A DNA stretch of 64,000 nucleotides from Polyangiaceae bacterium (GTDB lineage: Bacteria; Myxococcota_A; Polyangia; Polyangiales; Polyangiaceae). A model generated the notes under the pieces. It saw only the letters and a program-made list of their open reading frames with translations. It did not search any database and had not been told where the DNA came from. Location: positions 62,001 through 126,000 of the forward strand of contig JAHBVX010000006.1 of NCBI GenBank assembly GCA_019637295.1, read 5' to 3'. The position numbers and the translations under genes are program-made. Positions 8,479 to 62,349 of the stretch are shown in pieces; the stretch's first letter is position 1; each line of letters opens with the position of its first letter.

Positions 8479-9666
8479 ATGCTGAGCTTCGACGAGGCCC
8501 GAGACCGAGTGCTGGAGGCAGCGCGCCTCCTGGACAGCGAGGAGGTTCTTCTCGACGACGCCCTGGGGCGAGTGCTGCGCGAGGCGCTCGTCGCGCGCGA
8601 GCCGCTGCCACCGTTCGACACCAGCGCGATGGATGGCTATGCGGTGCGCACGGCGGATCTCGGTGCCGGCGCGTGGACCTTGCCCGTCGTGGGCGAGAGT
8701 CGCACCGGGCACGTGACCGGCCCGCTCGCGCCCGCCACCGCCATGCGCATCTTCACCGGCGCACAGCTCCCGAGCGGCGCGGACGCCGTCGTGATGCAAG
8801 AAGACGTGGAGCGGGACGGCGATCGCGCGCACGGCTCCACGGTCCCGGCGCCGGGCGCTCACGTGCGCCGCGCGGGTGGCGATCTGCTCGCGGGGGCCCA
8901 AGCTCTGCCGGCCGGCGCGCGCCTTGGACCCGGCGCTCTGGCGCTGTGCGCGTCGGTGGACGTGGCCCGCGTGCGGGTGAGCCGCCAGCCACGGGTGGCC
9001 ATCGTGTGCACCGGCGACGAGCTGCGCCCCGCCGGCAGCGCCCCGCGCCCCGGCAGCATTCCCGAGTCCAACGGCGTGGCGCTGGCAGCGTTCGTGCGGC
9101 AGGTGGGCGGGCAACCCCGGCGACTACCCCTCGTGGGCGATGATCGCGAGCAGACGACCCGCGCGATCGCCGACGCGCTGCAGGGCTCGGACCTGCTGTT
9201 GACCGTGGGCGGAGTGAGCGTGGGCGATCACGATCTGGTGCGCCCCGCCCTCGATGCCGCCGGTGCGACCCTGGACTTCTACAAGGTGCGCATCAAGCCA
9301 GGCAAACCGCTGACCTTCGGACACGCGGGCAGCACGCTCGTGTTCGGACTGCCGGGCAACCCGGTCTCCGCCCTGGTCACCTTCGCCCTCTTCGCCGCGC
9401 CGCTGCTGCGCGCGATGCAAGGCGACTCGCAGCTGCTGCCGCGCGTTCGGCGACTACCGCTGCTCGGAAGCGTGGAGCGCAAGCCCGGGCGGCGCACGTT
9501 CATGCCCGCGCGCACCAGCGACGACGGCGTCACACCGCTGACCAACCAGTCTTCCGGCGCGCCCACCAGCATCGCTTGGGCGGATGCGTTGATCGACGTG
9601 GACGAAGACAGCGAGTCCCTCTCCGCCGGTGCGCTGGTGCGCGTGATCGATCTGAGCAGCGTGTGA
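8479..9666 (+). CDS. moeA: Molybdopterin molybdenumtransferase MoeA
   Basis: 395 aa, full length. MoeA inserts molybdate into adenylylated molybdopterin. Seen motifs: PPFDTSAMDGYAV near residue 50, GAQLPSGADAVVMQED, an MPT-binding-like domain with VGGVSVGDHD (about 238-247), VRIKPGKPLTFG, GLPGNPVSALVTF, and the C-terminal beta domain. First gene of a tightly overlapping operon: its TGA overlaps the ATG of mobA by one base. Diverges from the gene ending at 8289 over a 189-bp gap where I see no clear promoter. Confidence 0.97.
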   Translation: MLSFDEARDRVLEAARLLDSEEVLLDDALGRVLREALVAREPLPPFDTSAMDGYAVRTADLGAGAWTLPVVGESRTGHVTGPLAPATAMRIFTGAQLPSGADAVVMQEDVERDGDRAHGSTVPAPGAHVRRAGGDLLAGAQALPAGARLGPGALALCASVDVARVRVSRQPRVAIVCTGDELRPAGSAPRPGSIPESNGVALAAFVRQVGGQPRRLPLVGDDREQTTRAIADALQGSDLLLTVGGVSVGDHDLVRPALDAAGATLDFYKVRIKPGKPLTFGHAGSTLVFGLPGNPVSALVTFALFAAPLLRAMQGDSQLLPRVRRLPLLGSVERKPGRRTFMPARTSDDGVTPLTNQSSGAPTSIAWADALIDVDEDSESLSAGALVRVIDLSSV

Positions 9667-10232
9667 TGAAGCTCGTGGCGGGCATCTTCATCGGCGGCCG
9701 CGGCTCACGCATGGGCGGCAAGGCCAAGGGGCTGCTGCGAGAGCCCGACGGCGAGCGAACGCTGATCGAGCGCAGCACGGACCTGCTGCAACGAGCCTGC
9801 CCCGCCGCCGAGACGCTCCTGGTCGGACAGCACGAAGCGTACGCTCACCTCCCGCTCGAGGTGTTGCCCGACGCCACGAGCGGCGACGGTCCGCTGGCGG
9901 GCCTGGTGGCGCTCTTGCGACGTGCCCGCGCTGCACAGGCCCAGGCCTTGGCCATCGCCTGCGACCTGCCCTACCTCACCGCACCCACGTTGAAGCGCCT
10001 GTGCACCGTCGCACCCGACGCGGACGCCGTCGCGCCACGACCAGACGGCGTGTGGCAGCCGCTGCTTGCCCGCTATCGTCCAGCCGCATGTCTGTCCATC
10101 GCGGAAGCGCAGCTGCGCGCTGGGCAGCTCGCGGTGTGGCGCGTGCTCGAGGCGCTGGGCGAACGCGCCATCGCCATCGAGCTCGACGCGGGCGAGGTGC
10201 GGGATTGGGACACGCCGGAGGACATGGCGTGA
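9666..10232 (+). CDS. mobA: Molybdenum cofactor guanylyltransferase MobA
   Basis: 188 aa. Transfers GMP from GTP to Mo-molybdopterin to give MGD, the form needed by DMSO-reductase-family enzymes such as the NapA encoded at 58130-60532. The N-terminal nucleotide loop is GGRGSRMGGKAKGLL; GDGPLAGLVALL and the metal-site stretch IACDLPYL follow; the C-terminal WDTPEDM is typical of the family. The ATG at 9666 shares one base with the moeA stop. The usual GGxDK variant of the loop is GGKAK here, a mild divergence. Confidence 0.93.
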   Translation: MKLVAGIFIGGRGSRMGGKAKGLLREPDGERTLIERSTDLLQRACPAAETLLVGQHEAYAHLPLEVLPDATSGDGPLAGLVALLRRARAAQAQALAIACDLPYLTAPTLKRLCTVAPDADAVAPRPDGVWQPLLARYRPAACLSIAEAQLRAGQLAVWRVLEALGERAIAIELDAGEVRDWDTPEDMA

Positions 10233-19571: not shown

Positions 19572-20021
19572 TCAGTGCCCGTGGGAGTGCCCCGGGCTGC
19601 AGCGGGCGTCCTCCCAGCCCACCCAGTAGGGCCCATCCGGGCCGTGCTCGCGCTTCCACACTGGGACGCGCTCTTTGATGCGGTCGATGAGCGCGCGGCA
19701 CGCGCGAAACGCCTCGTCGCGGTGGGGAGCGCTGGCGGCGCACAGCACGGCGACGTCACCCACCTCGAGACTGCCCACCCGATGGATGGCCGCGAGGCGA
19801 GTGTCGGGGATCTCGCGCGCGATCTCGTCGGCGATGCGCTGCATCTCTTTGATGGCCATGCTGGCGTATGCCTCGTACTCGAGCCGTACCACCGCGCGGC
19901 CGTCGTTCTCGCATCTGACCTGCCCCACGAACAGCGCCAACCCGCCGGCCTCTGGCCGTGACACGGCGGCGAGGACTTCTTCTGCTTTCACGACGCGGTC
20001 ACGAACATCGAACAGCGTCAT
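19572..20021 (-). CDS. moaE: Molybdopterin synthase catalytic subunit MoaE
   Basis: 149 aa. MoaE, with thiocarboxylated MoaD, converts precursor Z (cPMP) to molybdopterin. Seen: GGLALFVGQVR, YEAYASMAIKEM, AIHRVGSLEVGDVAVLCAASAPHRDEAF and the active-site stretch VPVWKREHGPDGPYWVGW with the conserved Lys. Short His/Gly tail. ATG 20021 overlaps the moaC stop by four bases, so the two are translationally coupled. No moaD gene is visible in the window. Confidence 0.96.
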   Translation of the reverse strand: MTLFDVRDRVVKAEEVLAAVSRPEAGGLALFVGQVRCENDGRAVVRLEYEAYASMAIKEMQRIADEIAREIPDTRLAAIHRVGSLEVGDVAVLCAASAPHRDEAFRACRALIDRIKERVPVWKREHGPDGPYWVGWEDARCSPGHSHGH

Positions 20022-20926
20022 CGCGAGTACTCTCCCGTGCGTCCCCCGCTCTTCTCCAGCAAGCGCGTGGGTCCGATCACCATACCGCGGTCCGAAGACT
20101 TCAGCATGTCGTAGACCGTCAGCGCGGCTACCGACGCGGCGACGAGCGCCTCCATCTCGACACCCGTGCGGTCGATGGCCTCCGCCGTCGCCCGAATCTC
20201 GACGGCGCTCCGCTCCGGCCTCACCTCGAGCTCGACGGCGACTCGGGTGAGCGCCACCAGGTGACAGAGCGGGATCAGCTCGGAGGTACGCTTGGCCGCC
20301 TGGATCCCGGCCAGGCGCGCCGCGGCCAGGACGTCGCCCTTCTTGGCGTCGAACTGCGTCAGCCGTTCGAGCGCGACGGGGCCGAGGGTGACCGAGGACT
20401 CGGCGACCGCGCGCCGCAACGCGATCGGCTTGTCACCGACGCCGACCATGCGTGCCTCACCCTTGGCGGACAGGTGCGTGGACAACCCCGTCGCCGCCAC
20501 GAGCTCATCGTAGGCCATGGGCGTGCGCTCCGGGCGACGCGACGCCGCCACCTTGTGGAGCGCGTAGCGCGCCAGCGGGGAGAGCGCGAGCCACTGCGCG
20601 TGACCCAGGGGACGGGACCCATCGAGCGCCGCCGGGATCTCCTGCGGCACTCGCTCGAGGCTGGGTTCGGGGAGCTGGGGCTGAGGCTCCGGCGCCGGAG
20701 TGGCCACCGCGACGGCAGCCCTCACCGCGCTCGCGTCGAGCGAGTCTGCCGCCCCCAATTCCACGACCGTCCGGCGCGCGTCTAGGGGCAGGCTCTGCCA
20801 CCCTGCCCGGGACAACCGCAGCCCCGCGTGGTCGAGCGCCCGGCGCGCCGCGAGGGGGATCAGCTCGAGATCGGCTCCGGCCTCGTCGAAATCGAACAGC
20901 ACTCCCGAAAGCTCGGCGGCAGACAC
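20018..20926 (-). CDS. moaC: MoaC fused to an N-terminal nitrate-reductase-associated-like domain
   Basis: 302 aa from GTG 20926 (start chosen by domain extent; the ribosome site is weak). Residues about 151-302 are a complete MoaC (cyclic pyranopterin monophosphate synthase): GEARMVGVGDKP, KKGDVLAAARLAGIQAAKRT, ELIPLCH, TGVEMEALVAASVAALTVYDMLK with the catalytic Asp/Lys (D273, K276), and LLEKSGGRTG. Ordinary MoaC is about 160 aa. The extra residues 1-75 read LFDFDEAGADLELIPLAARR, ALDHAGLRLSRAGWQSLP, matching by eye the FxF...IPxxxRxxLDxxGxxLxxxxWxxL pattern of the nitrate-reductase-associated (NarM-type) family. A Pro/Glu linker and a WLALSPLARYAL segment (111-122) connect them. Confidence 0.9.
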   Translation of the reverse strand: MSAAELSGVLFDFDEAGADLELIPLAARRALDHAGLRLSRAGWQSLPLDARRTVVELGAADSLDASAVRAAVAVATPAPEPQPQLPEPSLERVPQEIPAALDGSRPLGHAQWLALSPLARYALHKVAASRRPERTPMAYDELVAATGLSTHLSAKGEARMVGVGDKPIALRRAVAESSVTLGPVALERLTQFDAKKGDVLAAARLAGIQAAKRTSELIPLCHLVALTRVAVELEVRPERSAVEIRATAEAIDRTGVEMEALVAASVAALTVYDMLKSSDRGMVIGPTRLLEKSGGRTGEYSR

Positions 20927-20982: not shown

Positions 20983-22371
20983 ATGATCGCCCCGAGCGCC
21001 TCGGCGGGAGCCCGGCTCCGAGCTCTGCTGGCGACGAGCGGAGCCTGCGGGGTCGCCCTGGGTGCTGCGTGCGGGCCCGCGCCCTTGGGTCCCGAGCACG
21101 GCGCGGGCGGCGCGTGCGTGCTGACGCTCTCGCGACCACCTCTGCTGGCAGACACCCCCGAAGCGCTCGAGCCGCCGCTCTCCCGCGTCGTGGTCGACGC
21201 ACGAGCGACGGTGCGTTCCTTGTCGCAGCAGCTCGAGAAGCAGGTACCGGTCCTGCTCGGCTCCGCGAGTCGGCAGGACATTGGCGCCGCCGGTGAGGTC
21301 AGCTACACGGTGACCCGGGGCAAGGTCACCATCGACTTGGAGGGCGAGCACTTGCGCGCGCGGGTGCCCGTCGACACCAAGGTCGAGATCTGCAAGTCCC
21401 TCGGGCCAGTCTGCATCCGCTACGGCTCGTGCAACCCGCAGCTGCTGGCGGTCACCCGCGTGCCGCTCGTCCTCGCCGAGGACTACGCCATACTGCCCAG
21501 TCGGGTCAGCGTGGCGCTGACGCGCGGCTGCGTCATCGCCGGCTACGACGCGGGCCCCGAGATCCGACGTCAGGCGGCGCGACAGATCGGCACGGTGGAG
21601 CAGCGCATCAACGCGAGTGTCCCGGATGTGCGCCCAGCCGTCGCGGCAGGCTGGCGGCAGCTGCACGTGCCCGTCGCGCTCAGCCGCGACTCGTGCATTC
21701 GCGTCGAGCCGACCCGACTGGCTCAGTCACCCCCCACCCTCGCCGAGGGCCAGCTGGGGTTGCGCCTAGCGGCGTTCGGTCGCGCTTCGCTCGAGGGGCC
21801 CTGTTCGGACCAGAGCACGCCGGGGCCGCTGCCTGCGCGGGCCCTCGATGCGAGCTTGCCAGAACACAGCGAGCTCGTCGTACCCGTTCGCACGAGTCGT
21901 GCCGCGCTCTCCGGCGCGCTCACCCTCTCCTTGTCCAAGCCCGAAGGAGCCACCCGCGTGCTCAAGGTCGACGCTCGCCCGGTGCGTCACGACGGACAGT
22001 CGCGTCTGGCCCTCGACCTCACGCTCAGCGGCCGACTCTGCGGCGAGACTACGGTGCTGGCGAGCCTGCGCTACGACCCGAAGCGTGCTCGCCTGGTCCT
22101 GCATCGGCTGACGGCCCTTGACCCGTCGCCGGAGCTGACCCCCGTCATACAGGAGCTGGAGCGCCGCGCCGACGTCCCGCTGCCGATCGACGTCGGCGTC
22201 GTGGCGGGCTCGCTGCGCGCGCTGATCCAGGCCTCGACCTCCGAGGTCGCCGAGCCCGTGCGCGTGACGGTGTCGGTGCCGCCCGCTCGCATCGACCGGG
22301 TGGAGGTCGATGCCGAGGGCAGCGTGGCCTTGCTGCTCGTCACCGGCACCGCTCGCGTCGAGCTGCCGTGA
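20983..22371 (+). CDS. DUF4403-like lipoprotein
   Basis: 462 aa. Signal peptide with lipobox LGAAC (Cys30). The body has long amphipathic beta stretches and the phrases SRVVVDARATVRSLSQQLEKQVPVLLG, VSYTVTRGKVTIDLEGEHLRARVPV and, near the end, VPLPIDVGVVAGSLRALIQ, which resemble the DUF4403 family of outer-membrane-linked lipid-binding-like proteins. Function unknown. Divergent from moaC across 56 bp; its stop overlaps the moaA GTG by four bases, so moaA probably depends on this transcript. Confidence 0.75.
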   Translation: MIAPSASAGARLRALLATSGACGVALGAACGPAPLGPEHGAGGACVLTLSRPPLLADTPEALEPPLSRVVVDARATVRSLSQQLEKQVPVLLGSASRQDIGAAGEVSYTVTRGKVTIDLEGEHLRARVPVDTKVEICKSLGPVCIRYGSCNPQLLAVTRVPLVLAEDYAILPSRVSVALTRGCVIAGYDAGPEIRRQAARQIGTVEQRINASVPDVRPAVAAGWRQLHVPVALSRDSCIRVEPTRLAQSPPTLAEGQLGLRLAAFGRASLEGPCSDQSTPGPLPARALDASLPEHSELVVPVRTSRAALSGALTLSLSKPEGATRVLKVDARPVRHDGQSRLALDLTLSGRLCGETTVLASLRYDPKRARLVLHRLTALDPSPELTPVIQELERRADVPLPIDVGVVAGSLRALIQASTSEVAEPVRVTVSVPPARIDRVEVDAEGSVALLLVTGTARVELP

Positions 22372-23423
22372 GCCCGCGGGCGATCCCTGCTATAGCAGAG
22401 CGCGTGAGTGCTCCCGGTCTCCCCACCGCCGATCGCCTCGGTCGCCCTCTGAGCGAGCTGCGTATCAGCGTGACGGACCGCTGCAACCTGCGCTGCCGCT
22501 ACTGCATGCCCCGAGAACACTTCGACAGTACGTTTCGCTTCCTTCCGCGGGCAGAGCTGCTCAGCTTCGAGGAGCTCGGCACCATCACGCGAGTGCTCGC
22601 GTCCATGGGCGTGCAGAAGGCCCGACTCACGGGTGGGGAGCCGTTGTTGCGCCACGAGCTGCCCGTCCTGGTGGCCACCTTGGCTCGGGTTCCTGGCCTC
22701 GAGCTGGCGCTCACGACCAACGGTATCCTGCTGCCCAAGCTGGCAGCTCCGCTGAAGCGCGCCGGGCTCGGCCGCGTCACCGTCAGCCTGGACGCCCTGG
22801 ACGACGAGACCTTCGGCCGAATGTCCGACTCGCGGCACACCCCGGCGGAGGTGCTGGCAGGCATCGCCGCCGCCACCGAGGCGGGGCTGGCGCCGGTCAA
22901 GATCAACTGCGTGGTCAAGCGCGGCGTCAACGAGCACGCGATCGTACCGCTGGTCGAGAGGTTTCGTCACTCGGGGCACGTCGTGCGCTTCATCGAGTAC
23001 ATGGACGTGGGCACTACGAACGCCTGGCGCATGCAGGACGTGGTGTCAGGCGACGAGATCGTCGCCCGTATCGCCGCGCGCTTTCCCCTGGAGCCCATAG
23101 ACGAGCCGGGGCCGGCGCGGGTCGCGCGGCGCTTCACGCTCTCGGACGGCTCCGGGGAGATCGGCGTGATCACCAGCGTGACGCGCCCGTTCTGCAGCGG
23201 CTGCACTCGGCTACGGTTGTCGTCCGAGGGCAAGCTCTACACCTGCCTGTATGCGCAGCAGGGCCACGACCTGCGAGAAGTGCTGCGCGGTGGCGCTGGA
23301 CCTGCACGGCTCGAGGCCTACCTGGCCGAGATCTGGCGCGCGCGCGGCGATCGCTACTCGGAGCTTCGCACCTCCGCCACGGCCGAGCTCCGCCGACCCG
23401 AGATGTCGTACATCGGCGGTTGA
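22368..23423 (+). CDS. moaA: GTP 3',8-cyclase MoaA
   Basis: 351 aa. Radical SAM enzyme for the first step of molybdopterin synthesis from GTP. N-terminal cluster Cys39-x3-Cys43-x2-Cys46 in CNLRCRYC, the SAM motif TGGEPLL, and a C-terminal cluster Cys276, Cys279, Cys293 (CSGC...YTC). The last two residues are Gly-Gly, the conserved tail needed for activity in this family. GTG 22368 overlaps the upstream stop; a further GTG at codon 13 (ERVSAP) is possible. Gene order moaA/moaC/moaE is split over two strands here. Confidence 0.97.
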   Translation: MSPRAIPAIAERVSAPGLPTADRLGRPLSELRISVTDRCNLRCRYCMPREHFDSTFRFLPRAELLSFEELGTITRVLASMGVQKARLTGGEPLLRHELPVLVATLARVPGLELALTTNGILLPKLAAPLKRAGLGRVTVSLDALDDETFGRMSDSRHTPAEVLAGIAAATEAGLAPVKINCVVKRGVNEHAIVPLVERFRHSGHVVRFIEYMDVGTTNAWRMQDVVSGDEIVARIAARFPLEPIDEPGPARVARRFTLSDGSGEIGVITSVTRPFCSGCTRLRLSSEGKLYTCLYAQQGHDLREVLRGGAGPARLEAYLAEIWRARGDRYSELRTSATAELRRPEMSYIGG

Positions 23424-57166: not shown

Positions 57167-57354
57167 CACCGCTTCTTTCGCCGCACTCGCCCGCTACCGA
57201 CGTCCACCGTCTCGGCCAAGCCAACCAGCTCGGGCCGCACCCGCACTTCGACCCGCTCCGTGCTGGGTGCTGGGCGCTTCGCGTAGAAGCGATCGAGGAA
57301 GCCTTCGCGCGGTGCGCGCAGGCCGAACAGGTTGCGTCGACTGAGCGGCTTCAT
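57166..57354 (-). CDS. 62-residue unknown protein in the nap operon
   Basis: 62 aa. The ATG overlaps the stop of the NapB-like gene by four bases and the stop overlaps the next start. The N-terminus SRRNLFGLRAP resembles the first residues of NapF-type or other nap accessory proteins (Ser-Arg-Arg, then a hydrophobic stretch), but no ferredoxin Cys follows. The rest is Arg-rich and ends RRKKR. It may be a remnant or a real short peptide; the tight overlap favours a real gene. Confidence 0.55.
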   Translation of the reverse strand: MKPLSRRNLFGLRAPREGFLDRFYAKRPAPSTERVEVRVRPELVGLAETVDVGSGRVRRKKR

Positions 57355-58133
57355 GGCTTGTTGACCTCCCAAGGTGGCGGCGCCTCGTTCAAGGCGCGTT
57401 GATCCTTCGTGGCAGACGAGGCGTGGCATTGGTTGCAGCTCTGTCGATACGGGTGTGACGTACGAATGCCGTGGGCACCTCCCGGACCGTGACAGCTCGC
57501 GCAGTTCTCGCGCATGAACGTCGTGTGCGGGATCTGCGGTGGCGCGCCCGCCCACGCTCGCGGTCCGCTGCCCGAGGTCTCGAGGCCGACGAAGTCGTTC
57601 GGGGGCGGCGCGTCGAGCGCGAGCGGCTTCGGCGCCTCCGCGACGACGTGACATTGCACGCAGTTGTCCATGCGCTGGTGGCTCATCACCGGCGCGCGTC
57701 GCCCCGCGAGCAGCGCTCCGGACTCGTGGCAGGTGAGGCAAGACGGGAAGCGCTGTTGGTCAATGGCGTGCGGGATCTGCGGCGGAGCCCCGTCAAACGC
57801 CCGGCGCGCACGCCGCGCCTCGATGGTCGCGCGCCGCTCGTCCTCGGTCGCGGGCCGCTCCGGCGCAGGCAGAAGCCCCGGAGCGAGCTTGTCGAAGGCC
57901 GCGACGTACATTCCCTCGTTCGGCCCGCGGCGGCTGCCTGCCAGGTCCCCATAGCTCGGTACTGGTGCGTTGGCGGCAGACGCGCTGGCCACGGGCTCGA
58001 TGCCTGGCGCCGGCGGGGGCCTGTAGGGGTGTGCGCCGCCCATGAAGCCCGCGGCCGCGACGGTGACCACCGCGGCTCCGATCACGAGCCACGCGCGCCG
58101 ATCGATCCCGAAGGAGCGGTCGGGCTCGGTCAT
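57351..58133 (-). CDS. napB: Tetraheme NapB-like cytochrome c
   Basis: 260 aa; GGAGG lies just before ATG 58133. One N-terminal membrane anchor (AWLVIGAAVVTVAAAG, about 15-30). Four CxxCH motifs at 132-136, 158-162, 211-215 and 233-237. The segment GAPPQIPH occurs twice (116-123 and 197-203), each time before a pair of hemes, so the protein is an internal duplication of the diheme NapB unit. The middle FVGLE resembles NapB too. It should pass electrons to NapA in the periplasm. Overlaps napA by four bases. Confidence 0.85.
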   Translation of the reverse strand: MTEPDRSFGIDRRAWLVIGAAVVTVAAAGFMGGAHPYRPPPAPGIEPVASASAANAPVPSYGDLAGSRRGPNEGMYVAAFDKLAPGLLPAPERPATEDERRATIEARRARRAFDGAPPQIPHAIDQQRFPSCLTCHESGALLAGRRAPVMSHQRMDNCVQCHVVAEAPKPLALDAPPPNDFVGLETSGSGPRAWAGAPPQIPHTTFMRENCASCHGPGGAHGIRTSHPYRQSCNQCHASSATKDQRALNEAPPPWEVNKP

Positions 58134-60532
58134 GCTCCTCCGCTGCCGAGCCGGCGCACGCGCGCGGCGCACTTCTTGTAGTCCGGCTCCTTCGAGATGG
58201 GGCAGTGGGCCTGCAGCGTCAGCTCGTTGATCAGGCGCTTCTCGTCGAAGAAGGGCACGAACAACGAGCCGGGGGGCGGGGACCCGCGGCCGTCGATCCA
58301 GACCGGCAGCTCCAACGTCCCTCGCCTAGTCTCCAGAGCCACTCGCTCACCGTTCTGGATACCCAGCCGGCGAGCGTCGTCGCGGTTCATCTCGACGTAG
58401 GCCTCGGGCATGGCGCTGCGCAGCTGCGGAATGCGCATGGTCATCGTTCCCGTGTGCCAGTGCTCGAGCACCCGCCCAGTACAGAGCCAGAACGGGAACT
58501 TGTCGTCCGGAACCTCCGGCGGCAGCACGTAGGGGCTGAACCAGATCTGAGCGCGGCCATCATTCGTGGGCGAGTGGTAGAACTCGACGTTCTCGCCCTT
58601 CTTCACGTACGGGTCGTCGAAGCCAGCGAAGCGCCAGCGCGTCTCCTTCCAAGAACCGTCCGGTTGCTTGACGACCGGCCAGCGCAGGCCACGAGCCTTG
58701 ACGTACTCGCTGTAGGGCGCCAGGTCCTTGTGCTTGTAGGTGGAGAATTTGCGGTACTCCTCGAACAGGTGCTCGTCCACGTTGACGTCGTAGTAGCGAG
58801 CGAAGTCCCAGATCGGGACCTCCTTCCCTGCCTTCTCCGTGTGGAACAAGAAGCGACCGTCCTTGTCCTTCATGCCCTCGAACCCGCGCTCGAACAGGCG
58901 GCGGGCTGCGGCGATGATCTGCCAGCAATCGTCGCGCGCCTCGCCCGGGGGCTTCACCATCCGATACCACTGCTGCGTGCGGCGCTCGGAGTTGCCGAAC
59001 ATGCCGTTCTTCTCGACCCACAGAGCGCTGGGCAACACCAGGTCGGCGATCTCCGTCGTGGCCGTCGGATACACGTCACTGACGATCAAGAAACGCCCCG
59101 GGATCTTGCGGCTGGGGTCCACCAGCGCGTGGCGGTTGGGCAAGGAGTGCGCGGGGTTGGTGACTTGCACCCAGATGGTGTGAATGTCCCCGCCCTGTTC
59201 GGGTGGCGTGGAGAACTTCTCCCACATCAGCACCGTGTGGTGACCGGGCTTGGGGTTGATGCGCCCCTCGGGCACGTTCCAGATTTGCTCCGACTCGGCG
59301 CGATGCGCCGCGTTGGGCACGACCCGCCCGCCCGGCAACGCATGGGCAAGAGTGCCCACCTCGCGCGCGGTGCCACAGGCCGAGGGCTGCCCGGTCAGGC
59401 TCGTGGGTGCGTCGCCGGGGCGACCGAAGTGACCGCTCAGCAGGTGGACCGAGTGCACGAGCGCGTTGATGGCGGTGCCGCGCGTGTGCTGGTTCATCCC
59501 CATGCACCAGAGGCTGGTGATGCGCACGTCTCGCTTGCCGAACAGGTCGGCCATCATGCGGATGGCGTCGGCGCTGACGCCAGAAATCTCCTGCACCTTC
59601 TCGGGGGTGTACTCGGCGAGGCGCCGCTTGAACTCGGCGAAGTCGATGGGCTTGCCGGCCAGATCCATGGGCTCGTTGTCGCCACGGAAGGCACAGTGCC
59701 GCTGCACGAACTCGCGGTCGAAGGTGCCGCGCTCCACGAGCAGGTGCATGATGCCATTGGCGATCGCGAGATCCGTGTGTGGCTTGAACAGCAGGACGTG
59801 ATCCGCGTGCTGGCTCGAGCGCGTGTGCCGAGTACAGAGGTCGATGATCGTGACCTTCTCTCCGCGCACCCGGCGGTCGATGATCCGAGAGAACAGCACA
59901 GGGTGCATCTCCGCCGGGTTGTTCCCCCACAGGATCACGACGTCTGCGCGGTCGAGGTCGTCGTACACCCCCGCCGGCTCGTCCACGCCGTAGACCGCCA
60001 AGAAGCCCGTGACCGCGCTCGCCATGCACAGCCGCGCGTTCGGATCGATGTGATTGCAGGACAGGCCACCCTTCATGAACTTCTGCGCGGCATAGCCCTC
60101 GGGAATCGTCCACTGGCCGCTGCCGTAGAAGGCGAAGCCCTTTGGGTCGAGCATCACGCGATCGGCGATCACGTCCAGCGCTTCGTTCCACGAGATCGGC
60201 ACGAGCTTGCCGTTCTTGCGCAGGAGCGGCCGAGTGAGCCGATCCTTGCCGTAGAGCGCGAGCGCGACGTGGTAGCCCTTGACGCAGAGCAGCCCGCGAT
60301 TGACCTCGGCTTGCTGGTCGCCCGCGATGGCGACGACCTTGCCCCCTTTGACGCCAACCTGCACGTGGCAGCCCGTACCGCAGAACCGACAGGGCGCCTT
60401 CTGCCAGCGCACGTCACCCGCGTGACGAGCGCTCACGCTCGGCTCGACCCCGTCCTGTGCGACCGCGAGGCGTGAGGCGGCTGCGGTCGCCGCCGTCATC
60501 GCGCTGGCCTTGATGAAGTCTCTTCGTTCCAT
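58130..60532 (-). CDS. napA: Periplasmic nitrate reductase catalytic subunit NapA
   Basis: 800 aa. Tat signal with RRDFIK at 3-8. [4Fe-4S] ligands Cys48, Cys51, Cys55 and Cys83 (CRFCGTGC ... CVKGYH), Lys85 near the cluster, and the Mo ligand Cys169 in NARLCMASAV. Mo-bisMGD binding motifs follow along the chain (LWGNNPAEMHPVLF, GMNQHTRGTAINAL, FWLCTGRVLEHWHTGTMTMRIPQL, ending with a domain of the NapA type). Reduces nitrate to nitrite in the periplasm, with electrons from NapB. napD lies 5 bp upstream. Confidence 0.96.
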   Translation of the reverse strand: MERRDFIKASAMTAATAAASRLAVAQDGVEPSVSARHAGDVRWQKAPCRFCGTGCHVQVGVKGGKVVAIAGDQQAEVNRGLLCVKGYHVALALYGKDRLTRPLLRKNGKLVPISWNEALDVIADRVMLDPKGFAFYGSGQWTIPEGYAAQKFMKGGLSCNHIDPNARLCMASAVTGFLAVYGVDEPAGVYDDLDRADVVILWGNNPAEMHPVLFSRIIDRRVRGEKVTIIDLCTRHTRSSQHADHVLLFKPHTDLAIANGIMHLLVERGTFDREFVQRHCAFRGDNEPMDLAGKPIDFAEFKRRLAEYTPEKVQEISGVSADAIRMMADLFGKRDVRITSLWCMGMNQHTRGTAINALVHSVHLLSGHFGRPGDAPTSLTGQPSACGTAREVGTLAHALPGGRVVPNAAHRAESEQIWNVPEGRINPKPGHHTVLMWEKFSTPPEQGGDIHTIWVQVTNPAHSLPNRHALVDPSRKIPGRFLIVSDVYPTATTEIADLVLPSALWVEKNGMFGNSERRTQQWYRMVKPPGEARDDCWQIIAAARRLFERGFEGMKDKDGRFLFHTEKAGKEVPIWDFARYYDVNVDEHLFEEYRKFSTYKHKDLAPYSEYVKARGLRWPVVKQPDGSWKETRWRFAGFDDPYVKKGENVEFYHSPTNDGRAQIWFSPYVLPPEVPDDKFPFWLCTGRVLEHWHTGTMTMRIPQLRSAMPEAYVEMNRDDARRLGIQNGERVALETRRGTLELPVWIDGRGSPPPGSLFVPFFDEKRLINELTLQAHCPISKEPDYKKCAARVRRLGSGGA

Positions 60533-60537
60533 GTTCC

Positions 60538-60810
60538 TCAGCTCCCGGGGGCAGGTTCGGGCGACAGCTCGCTAGCCTCGGAGAAGTCGACGCTCACCAC
60601 GTCGACGAACGACACGCCGGGCAGATCCCAGATCTCGCGCAGCGCTCGCTCCGCCTCGACGGCGTCCCCGGTGTCGAGCACCGCGGGGATGCGCGCGCCG
60701 ATGGTCTCGCCGAGCTCGAGATCCCCTCTGGCCCGGAGCACGGCGCGCAGCGCCTGGTCCTGGCTGGGGTCGATGGTCACGAGGATCGCTGCGATGGCCA
60801 CGGGGCCCAT
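60538..60810 (-). CDS. napD: NapD chaperone
   Basis: 90 aa from ATG 60810. Fold and length match NapD, which binds the Tat signal of NapA and prevents early export: AIAAILVTIDPSQDQALRAVL (ferredoxin-like beta-alpha-beta), then ELGETIGARIPAVLDTGD and SFVDVVSVDF. Ends with an acidic/Pro tail. Cytoplasmic. First gene of the nap group (napD-napA-napB-two small genes). Confidence 0.88.
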   Translation of the reverse strand: MGPVAIAAILVTIDPSQDQALRAVLRARGDLELGETIGARIPAVLDTGDAVEAERALREIWDLPGVSFVDVVSVDFSEASELSPEPAPGS

Positions 60811-60955
60811 CCGTCTGCAACAGCCGAGCCAACTTGCGATCGGCGCGAGTCTCGGGTTCGCCGGGGTTCTTCGCAGGCGAGATCGCGCAGCAATTGCGGC
60901 CACTGAACGCGTCTGCGGCGCGAGTCGAGGCTCGCGCCGCAGGATTCGCTGGACT

Positions 60956-61417
60956 TCAACCCTTCTTCACCGTCACCTGCTTGGGTACTGCACCGGGCTT
61001 CCGCGGGACGAGCAGCGTCAGGACGCCGTCCTTGAGCTCGGCCTGCACACCGTCGTCCGCTACCCCCTCGGGCAGGGTGAACGACCGCGTGAACGAGCCA
61101 TGGGAGCGCTCGTAGGTGTAGTAGGTGTCGGTCTTGTGCTCCTTCTCGCCCTCGCGCTTTCCGCTGACGCTGAGACGATTCTGCGAGATCTTCACGTCCA
61201 GGTCCTCGGGCTTGACCCCGGGCATGTCCGCGCGGAAGAGGTAGCCCTCGGCGGTCTCCTTGACGTCGAACGCAGGCGTGAACTGCTGCGCCTGCAGCGG
61301 TGCGAAGCCAGCTTCGGTGAAGGGATCCCAGCGCATGAACTCCCGCATGACGCGGAAGGGATCCCAGGCTCGCACGGGCGCGGGCTGCTCGGACTTCTTG
61401 ACTTCGATGTCGGCCAT
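60956..61417 (-). CDS. Hsp20/alpha-crystallin small heat-shock protein
   Basis: 153 aa from ATG 61417, preceded by AAGGGG. N-terminus with AWDPFRVMREFMRWDPF; alpha-crystallin domain: FDVKETAEGYLFRADMPGVKPEDLDVKIS, RLSVSGKREGE, GSFTRSFTLPEGVADDGVQAELKDGVLTLLVPR. The C-terminal end GAVPKQVTVKKG follows the family. Cytoplasmic holdase. The gene is placed between the nap operon and the divergent cytochrome module, on the nap strand, 145 bp from napD. Confidence 0.95.
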   Translation of the reverse strand: MADIEVKKSEQPAPVRAWDPFRVMREFMRWDPFTEAGFAPLQAQQFTPAFDVKETAEGYLFRADMPGVKPEDLDVKISQNRLSVSGKREGEKEHKTDTYYTYERSHGSFTRSFTLPEGVADDGVQAELKDGVLTLLVPRKPGAVPKQVTVKKG

Positions 61418-61734
61418 CTTGAATTTCCCCTTGTTCGGGCCAGCACCTCGCTGGCCTCGGGGAGGTCGCAGCAAGGCGCATTCCAGGTTGGTTCAACATA
61501 GATTCCAACTAGTTACGCGCCCGCGACCGGCAACAACTGCGCGCTGGCGGATGCGGGCACGATCGAGTTTCGTGCTCCATCGAGGCTCGCCACCCGGTGG
61601 TGACCGCCGTCCTTTCGCATGGGGTTCGCACCGACAGCCCTGCCACGCATATTTTTCGCGAATGTCGGGTTCCGCGGGATCCATCAGGACCGGAAACGCG
61701 GCCGCAGGTCCCGACGGCGGCGCTGGCACAAGGA
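61418..61734. other. Divergent intergenic region upstream of hsp20 and the cytochrome module
   Basis: 317 bp without a protein gene. It contains a possible minus-strand promoter (61480-61508), the palindrome AACTAGTT (61507-61514) and a GTTG/CAAC inverted repeat (61487-61497). I see no FNR-type TTGAT-N4-ATCAA box and no CIRCE element. A promoter for the plus-strand module was not found by eye. Confidence 0.4.
61480..61508 (-). promoter_or_regulatory. Possible sigma-70-like promoter for hsp20
   Basis: On the minus strand TTGGAA (61508-61503), a 17-base spacer, then TGGAAT (61485-61480), 4 of 6 matches each to the -35 and -10 consensus. It lies 63 bases upstream of the hsp20 start. Confidence 0.35.
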
Positions 61735-62349
61735 GTGCAACTGCGCCCCGCCGTGCTCCGAGCGTGTACCGTCCTCCTGGTTGTCTTCGTCGGCGCGTGC
61801 TCGTCCGGATCAGCCGAGCCCGCGCCCTCCTCGTCAGGAGCGAAGCTCGAGGGCGATGCGGTGAGCTACCCGCCCGTCATCAATCGTCCCGAGAAGCTCA
61901 CTAGCGTAGAGACGCCGAAGAAGGACGCCCTCGGACGCCCCATCCGCGTGGCCTGCGTCACCTGTCACTCGCTGAGGCCAGACGCGCCCTTGCCCCAGTC
62001 CGCCGGGGAGCTGCGCGAGTTCCATGAGGGCCTTCGCTTCACGCACGGCACCCTCACCTGCGCATCGTGCCACGTACCCGGGCGAGTGGATCAGCTGAGT
62101 ATGGCCGACGGTCGCACCATCGAGATGCTCGATGTGATCGAGCTGTGCTCACAGTGTCACGGACAGAAGCGCAGAGCCTTCGACCGCGGCGCGCACGGCG
62201 GGATGATGGGCTACTGGGACTCCTCTCGCGGTCCCAAATTGCGACACAACTGCGTGGACTGCCACGACCCCCACACCCCCGCCTTCGCCGGCGGCCAGCC
62301 GGTCCTGAGACCCAACGACCGCGGCCTACGACAGGGAGGAGGGCACTGA
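61735..62349 (+). CDS. Tetraheme cytochrome c lipoprotein
   Basis: 204 aa from GTG 61735 (the start is uncertain; AAGGAG overlaps it, so a later start is possible). Lipobox VGAC (Cys22). Four CxxCH motifs at 74-78, 109-113, 138-142 and 173-177. Other His residues (EFHEGLRFTHGTL, RGAHGGMM, DCHDPH) can serve as distal ligands. Of the NrfH/NapC-like or doubled-CXXCH cytochrome type but without a membrane helix; it is anchored by lipid. It overlaps the FeS protein gene by one base and so forms a module with it and the NrfD-like protein. Confidence 0.8.
   Translation: MQLRPAVLRACTVLLVVFVGACSSGSAEPAPSSSGAKLEGDAVSYPPVINRPEKLTSVETPKKDALGRPIRVACVTCHSLRPDAPLPQSAGELREFHEGLRFTHGTLTCASCHVPGRVDQLSMADGRTIEMLDVIELCSQCHGQKRRAFDRGAHGGMMGYWDSSRGPKLRHNCVDCHDPHTPAFAGGQPVLRPNDRGLRQGGGH

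Follow-up and report, generated by a model that had tools for sequence, protein, structure and literature searches.

The narM-moaC locus

The window, a stretch of 64,000 nucleotides from a Polyangiaceae bacterium, encodes a 302-residue protein in which a NarM-type domain precedes MoaC, the cyclic pyranopterin monophosphate (cPMP) synthase of the molybdenum cofactor (Moco) pathway (Table 1). The original prediction of this gene was correct in coordinates, strand and frame, and its reading of the product as a MoaC with a NarM-like N-terminal domain is borne out by PF09655 and MoaC matches that both exceed the Pfam cut-offs; the ~150 extra residues that it described correspond to about 149 residues ahead of MoaC, which form a separate domain. 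The GC content by codon position is coding-like to about 20950. The exact start of the fusion is uncertain, being either the GTG at 20926 or the GTG at codon 9, and the latter aligns better with relatives beginning with VKLYAF.

The stop codon of the fusion and the start codon of moaE share an ATGA at 20018-20021, and this overlap suggests that moaE is translationally coupled to the fusion. The moaA gene is divergent from the fusion and lies behind the gene for the DUF4403 lipoprotein. The arrangement of the DUF4403 gene, which points away from narM-moaC and immediately precedes moaA, recurs in several relatives (L041, L046, L048, L054, and L059). The moeA and mobA genes are situated 10 kb from the fusion, and the true start of the mobA-like gene is probably internal to its open reading frame. 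With MoaA, MoaE, MoeA, and MobA all found, the window holds most of the bis-MGD/Moco pathway, as had been predicted. The predicted napA is also present, about 37 kb from the fusion and not in the same operon. The NapA of the window scores slightly under the NCBI curated cut-offs, and the region 57351-62349 contains, besides NapA and the NapB-like multihaem cytochrome, a further multihaem cytochrome gene.

Table 1. Features of the narM-moaC locus and of its degenerate relatives (positions are those of the window, or of the locus named)
Feature	Position	Strand	Remarks
NarM-MoaC fusion gene	20018-20926	-	302 aa; GTG start; GTG at codon 9 is an alternative start
NarM-type N-domain (PF09655 Nitr_red_assoc)	20534-20896	-	Residues 11-131; placed by Pfam, model, internal repeat and alignments
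Last N-domain helix and junction to MoaC	20480-20533	-	Residues 132-149
MoaC domain	20021-20479	-	Residues 150-302
moaE (molybdopterin synthase large subunit)	19572-20021	-	ATG overlaps TGA of the fusion
DUF4403 putative lipoprotein	20986-22371	+	Divergent from the fusion
moaA (GTP 3',8-cyclase)	22368-23423	+	Acts just ahead of MoaC in the pathway
moeA	8479-9666	+	
mobA-like guanylyltransferase	9576-10232	+	Open reading frame overlaps moeA
napA-type nitrate reductase catalytic subunit	58130-60532	-	E=2e-270; PRK13532 899.5 bits, cut-off 904
NapB-like multihaem cytochrome adjoining napA	57351-58172	-	PF03892, E=2.5e-7
NarM and degenerate MoaC without catalytic residues	L034:6718-7866	-	
NarM and degenerate MoaC without catalytic residues	L037:2979-4187	+	
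NarM and degenerate MoaC without catalytic residues	L105:5825-6778	+	
NarM and degenerate MoaC without catalytic residues	L035:2077-2952	-	
NarM and degenerate MoaC without catalytic residues	L085:1003-1890	+	

Coding status of the fusion

NarM-MoaC is a genuine fusion, and it is both the sole MoaC and the sole PF09655 copy of the genome. In codon comparisons, dN is lower than dS in both halves, with a dN/dS of about 0.14-0.5 in the N-domain and a lower value in MoaC; purifying selection acts on both halves and is stronger in MoaC, and the N-domain evolves faster. A chance open frame or other artefact was rejected on the coding signature, the selection, and the recurrence in many genomes, since a fusion that recurs across independent genomes is neither due to chance nor a sequencing artefact. 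Internal initiation that would yield a separate MoaC was also rejected, because the codon comparisons of the fusions revealed no conserved start codon between the N-domain and MoaC, and the invariant M160 belongs to the motif of MoaC itself. No description of a NarM-MoaC fusion was found in the open-access literature.

Structure of the NarM-type domain

The PF09655 profile matches the N-domain with 43.7 bits (E=4.7e-11; gathering cut-off 25) over profile positions 2-132, covering 131 of its 144 positions. On the NCBIfam model of NarM, TIGR02664, the score of 49.8 bits is significant but below the subfamily cut-off of 110 bits; the other Polyangiales copies tested score 18-86 bits, all below this cut-off, and loci L086 and L087 reach 163.5-163.7 bits. 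By these profile scores, the N-domain is within the NarM superfamily and outside its curated core. F13, L20, P24, R28, L31, W43, L115, and R120 are invariant when the domain is aligned with four canonical-type members encoded on plasmids; two of the four score 163.5-163.7 bits on TIGR02664. The domain has in common with the canonical NarM of cyanobacteria and Pseudomonadota (PF09655, TIGR02664) the motif F-x-F...P-x3-R-x2-L-D...W...R and a second W...R half. However, the canonical members tested stand alone, whereas the domain described here is joined to MoaC, and most fused members occur in the absence of NapA or NarG.

The N-domain modeled alone is all-helical, with a pLDDT of 92.7 and a pTM of 0.86. 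In the AlphaFold model of the whole fusion, built as a monomer, the mean pLDDT is 90.7 and the pTM is 0.56, and the pLDDT is about 64-79 across residues 141-170 in the junction region. With a pTM of 0.56, compared with 0.86 for the N-domain alone, the model does not define how the two domains are positioned with respect to each other. The structure prediction is confident for the fold of the domain, and no solved-structure relative was found for it by sequence, Foldseek or VIA-align (best E 5.1, Z 3.1); because no solved structure resembles it, neither a ligand- nor a partner-binding site can be deduced. The domain contains two W-x2-L-x4-R half-repeats, W43...R51 and W112...R120. A profile comparison of one half with the other gives 23.6, exceeding the best of 60 column shuffles (16.5), which indicates that the domain probably arose by internal duplication.

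Structure of the MoaC domain

The Pfam match to MoaC spans residues 160-295 (E=1.4e-49), and the equivalog model TIGR00581 of NCBIfam scores 181.6 bits against a cut-off of 141.5. In alignment to 4PYD/1EKR, residues R171, K196, H222, E257, E259, D273, and K276 correspond to R26, K51, H77, E112, E114, D128, and K131 of the E. coli enzyme. The catalytic residues are invariant over 27 aligned fusions, and the modeled MoaC part superposes on the cPMP-bound 4PYD at 1.1 Å. Judged from these alignments, the MoaC domain is complete and retains every catalytic residue, as in the known cPMP synthases (TIGR00581; PDB 1EKR, 4PYD, 2IDE), from which the fusion differs in its extra N-terminal domain. Other MoaC fusions are represented in NCBIfam, such as MoaC/MoaB (PRK03604), MoaC/MOSC (PRK14499), and MoaC/MobA (PRK14500), which likewise place MoaC and a Moco-related domain in one chain. 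However, their partners are C-terminal to MoaC, unlike the N-terminal NarM domain, and none of the NCBIfam MoaC-fusion models that matched includes a NarM domain.

Distribution of the fusion

PF09655 is carried by 37 of the 379 genomes of the phylum Myxococcota. A count of carriers in the window's own Polyangiaceae-type family, whose members are soil myxobacteria, gave the canonical NarM-MoaC fusion in 19 of the 35 sampled genomes, and the fusion is also found in the isolate Polyangium fumosum DSM 14668 and in Polyangium sp. A scan of named genomes yielded 39 loci with the N-domain, 34 of which are NarM-MoaC; all 39 come from Myxococcota or from MAG records labeled "Deltaproteobacteria" or "Proteobacteria", a restriction that does not equal absence elsewhere, as the scan used one peptide pattern from the Polyangia version. 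In the MoaC tree, which holds 43 distinct NarM-fused MoaC sequences, we counted eight label changes, but many branches are weak, and the fusion may have arisen once or several times. Seven sampled family members bearing MoaC lack the domain (G033, G057, G062, G116, G274, G318, and G347), and hence the N-domain is dispensable for Moco synthesis as such.

Other fusion partners of the domain

Beyond what had been predicted, we found in-frame fusions of the domain to MoaC, to MoaC-MoaE, to MoaE alone, and to MobA in both orders. The NarM domain, MoaC, and MoaE are situated in one chain at L019, L052, and L059, and the domain is fused in frame to MoaE alone at L065:7848-8915(+). The MAG with this NarM-MoaE gene also holds a NarM-MoaC gene (L067). 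MobA is located downstream of the domain in L004, L005, L098, and L106 and upstream of it in L031 and L036, and these fusions, in either arrangement, come from two other families of the same taxonomic order. All clear partners identified are enzymes of Moco biosynthesis, from early to late steps, and the stand-alone NarM-type genes of the same order often adjoin MobA or MoaC (L071, L074, L097, and L102). The recurrent fusion to Moco enzymes, as read from the genes, provides the best evidence of a functional link, and the additional fusions to MoaE and MobA point to a role across Moco assembly.

It is unlikely, in our judgment, that the N-domain has no role in assembly and instead regulates MoaC allosterically or stabilizes it, or is the neutral outcome of an operon fusion between co-expressed neighbors. 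Stand-alone NarM-type genes that overlap or adjoin Moco genes, as at L097 (genome G155), where the NarM open reading frame overlaps that of mobA, would be a natural step before such a fusion; the existence of family members without the domain and its faster evolution relative to MoaC are in line with the same explanation. However, three or more different enzymes carry the domain, in both orders, and P24, R28, W43, R51, W112, and R120 are invariant across these fusions, which argues for a retained common function. The purifying selection on the domain also speaks against this explanation.

A catalytic or cofactor-binding function of the domain itself in the Moco pathway, for example in holding molybdopterin or bis-MGD intermediates, is rather improbable. 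The conserved R28, R29, R51, R120, W43, and W112 could hold the pterin pyrophosphate, and the extension of the fusions to MoaC/MoaE and MobA is consistent with such a function, but neither a recognized active-site motif nor a ligand-binding fold was found in the domain, and the seven MoaC-bearing relatives do without it. To our knowledge, Moco pathways elsewhere are likewise complete without a NarM-type domain.

Relation to nitrate reductase and other molybdoenzymes

The original prediction proposed that the fusion could tie Moco synthesis to delivery into nitrate reductase. NapA does occur in the window, but the link is not strict among the carriers, 12 of the 19 having neither NapA nor NarG. 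NapA (counted at ≥73% identity to that of the window) or a full NarG is present in 7 of the 19 genomes with the canonical fusion and in 1 of the 10 family members whose MoaC is separate (Fisher p=0.20). Only three of the other family members sampled, each a carrier of the fusion, have close counterparts of the window's NapA (73-82% identity); four carriers and two non-carriers encode a full NarG, and some other genomes contain NasC- or formate-dehydrogenase-like enzymes whose substrate is uncertain. At least four carriers (G160, G288, G313, and G357) contain none of NapA, NarG, and NasC-like enzymes, and their Mo enzymes are FdhF/YdeP-, PhsA- or QrcB-like only. A DMSO-reductase-family enzyme is encoded in 18 of the 19 canonical-fusion genomes, compared with 6 of the 10 with a separate MoaC (p=0.036, a value that ignores phylogeny).

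A plasmid search for PF09655 outside Myxococcota gave seven stand-alone matches. On the Acetobacteraceae plasmids (L086, L134, L135, and L136), canonical NarM genes lie directly upstream of FdhF/YdeP oxidoreductases, with no nitrate reductase nearby, and some of these loci also contain fdhD, moaA/moaD/moaE or a MobA-like gene. Insertion sequences commonly surround these plasmid genes. One Agrobacterium NarM copy has no Mo gene near it.

It is therefore very doubtful that the NarM domain targets cofactor synthesis to nitrate reductase alone, which here would be NapA. In favor of it are the NapA and NapB-like genes of the window, a stand-alone NarM gene that adjoins napA in G236, and the somewhat commoner occurrence of NapA or NarG in carriers. 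Cyanobacterial narM, according to work by Maeda and Omata in 2004, is reportedly required for nitrate reductase to be active. Cyanobacterial members of the family are found together with moaA, moaC, moeA, and moaE as well as with nitrate reductase (PMC5862535). Against such specificity, in addition to the carriers without these reductases and the FdhF/YdeP neighbors in Acetobacteraceae, stand the distance between napA and the fusion and the fact that the fusion, being the only MoaC, must serve other Mo enzymes too. Moreover, MoaC makes the first intermediate of the cofactor, long before cofactor insertion. A nitrate-specific role does not fit the distribution, but a broader role in Moco assembly does.

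Proposed role of the domain in Moco assembly

The simplest function for a domain that is fused to MoaC, MoaE or MobA in either order is that of an adaptor. We infer that the NarM-type domain acts as a helical adaptor of Moco assembly for DMSO-reductase-family clients generally and not for nitrate reductase alone, a reading to which we give about an even chance. As the cell's only cPMP synthase, the fusion would perform through MoaC the normal second half of the first Moco step, and the NarM-type domain would link the Moco-making enzymes to one another, to the recipient apo-enzymes, or to both, the clients being mainly bis-MGD enzymes in general. E. coli MoaC is a hexamer; a hexamer of the fusion would display six NarM-type domains beside the translationally coupled MoaE. 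As a counterpoint to the adaptor, the fusion partners may reflect operon neighborhood rather than physical need. FdhD and the NarJ/TorD-type maturation factors would likewise act between Moco synthesis and DMSO-reductase-family apo-enzymes, but they have no sequence match to the N-domain and are comparable by proposed role only.

A more tentative possibility is that PF09655 is a transferable docking module by which MoaC, MoaE, and MobA are recruited, an organizer of the Moco assembly line that was covalently joined to different enzymes according to the myxobacterial lineage. If true, the "nitrate-reductase-associated" family would really be a pathway-wide Moco scaffold serving many molybdoenzymes. 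NarM is among the least understood molybdoenzyme maturation factors and takes its name from one client; as no strict nitrate reductase link emerged, both the family name and the assumed role seem too narrow. The natural fusions to three Moco enzymes are direct clues to the partners of NarM, and the covalent link between the first Moco step and a maturation factor makes substrate channelling testable in a culturable host, Polyangium.

Degenerate NarM-MoaC paralogues

In G007, G349, and the second copy of G246, the NarM domain is followed by a highly diverged MoaC-like domain. At their C-terminal end, the chains of L034 and L037, the two that were read closely, carry a hydrophobic stretch resembling a typical membrane helix. 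A milder degenerate version, in which the equivalents of K51 and H77 are lost, is present in G042 and G140. These paralogues are possibly a pseudoenzyme or regulatory offshoot, and the retention of the NarM and MoaC-like pair after the loss of the catalytic residues would suit a structural role. In G140, L084:1360-2502(+) encodes a stand-alone MoaC followed by an in-frame MoaB/MogA-like domain, alongside the degenerate NarM-MoaC copy of that genome.
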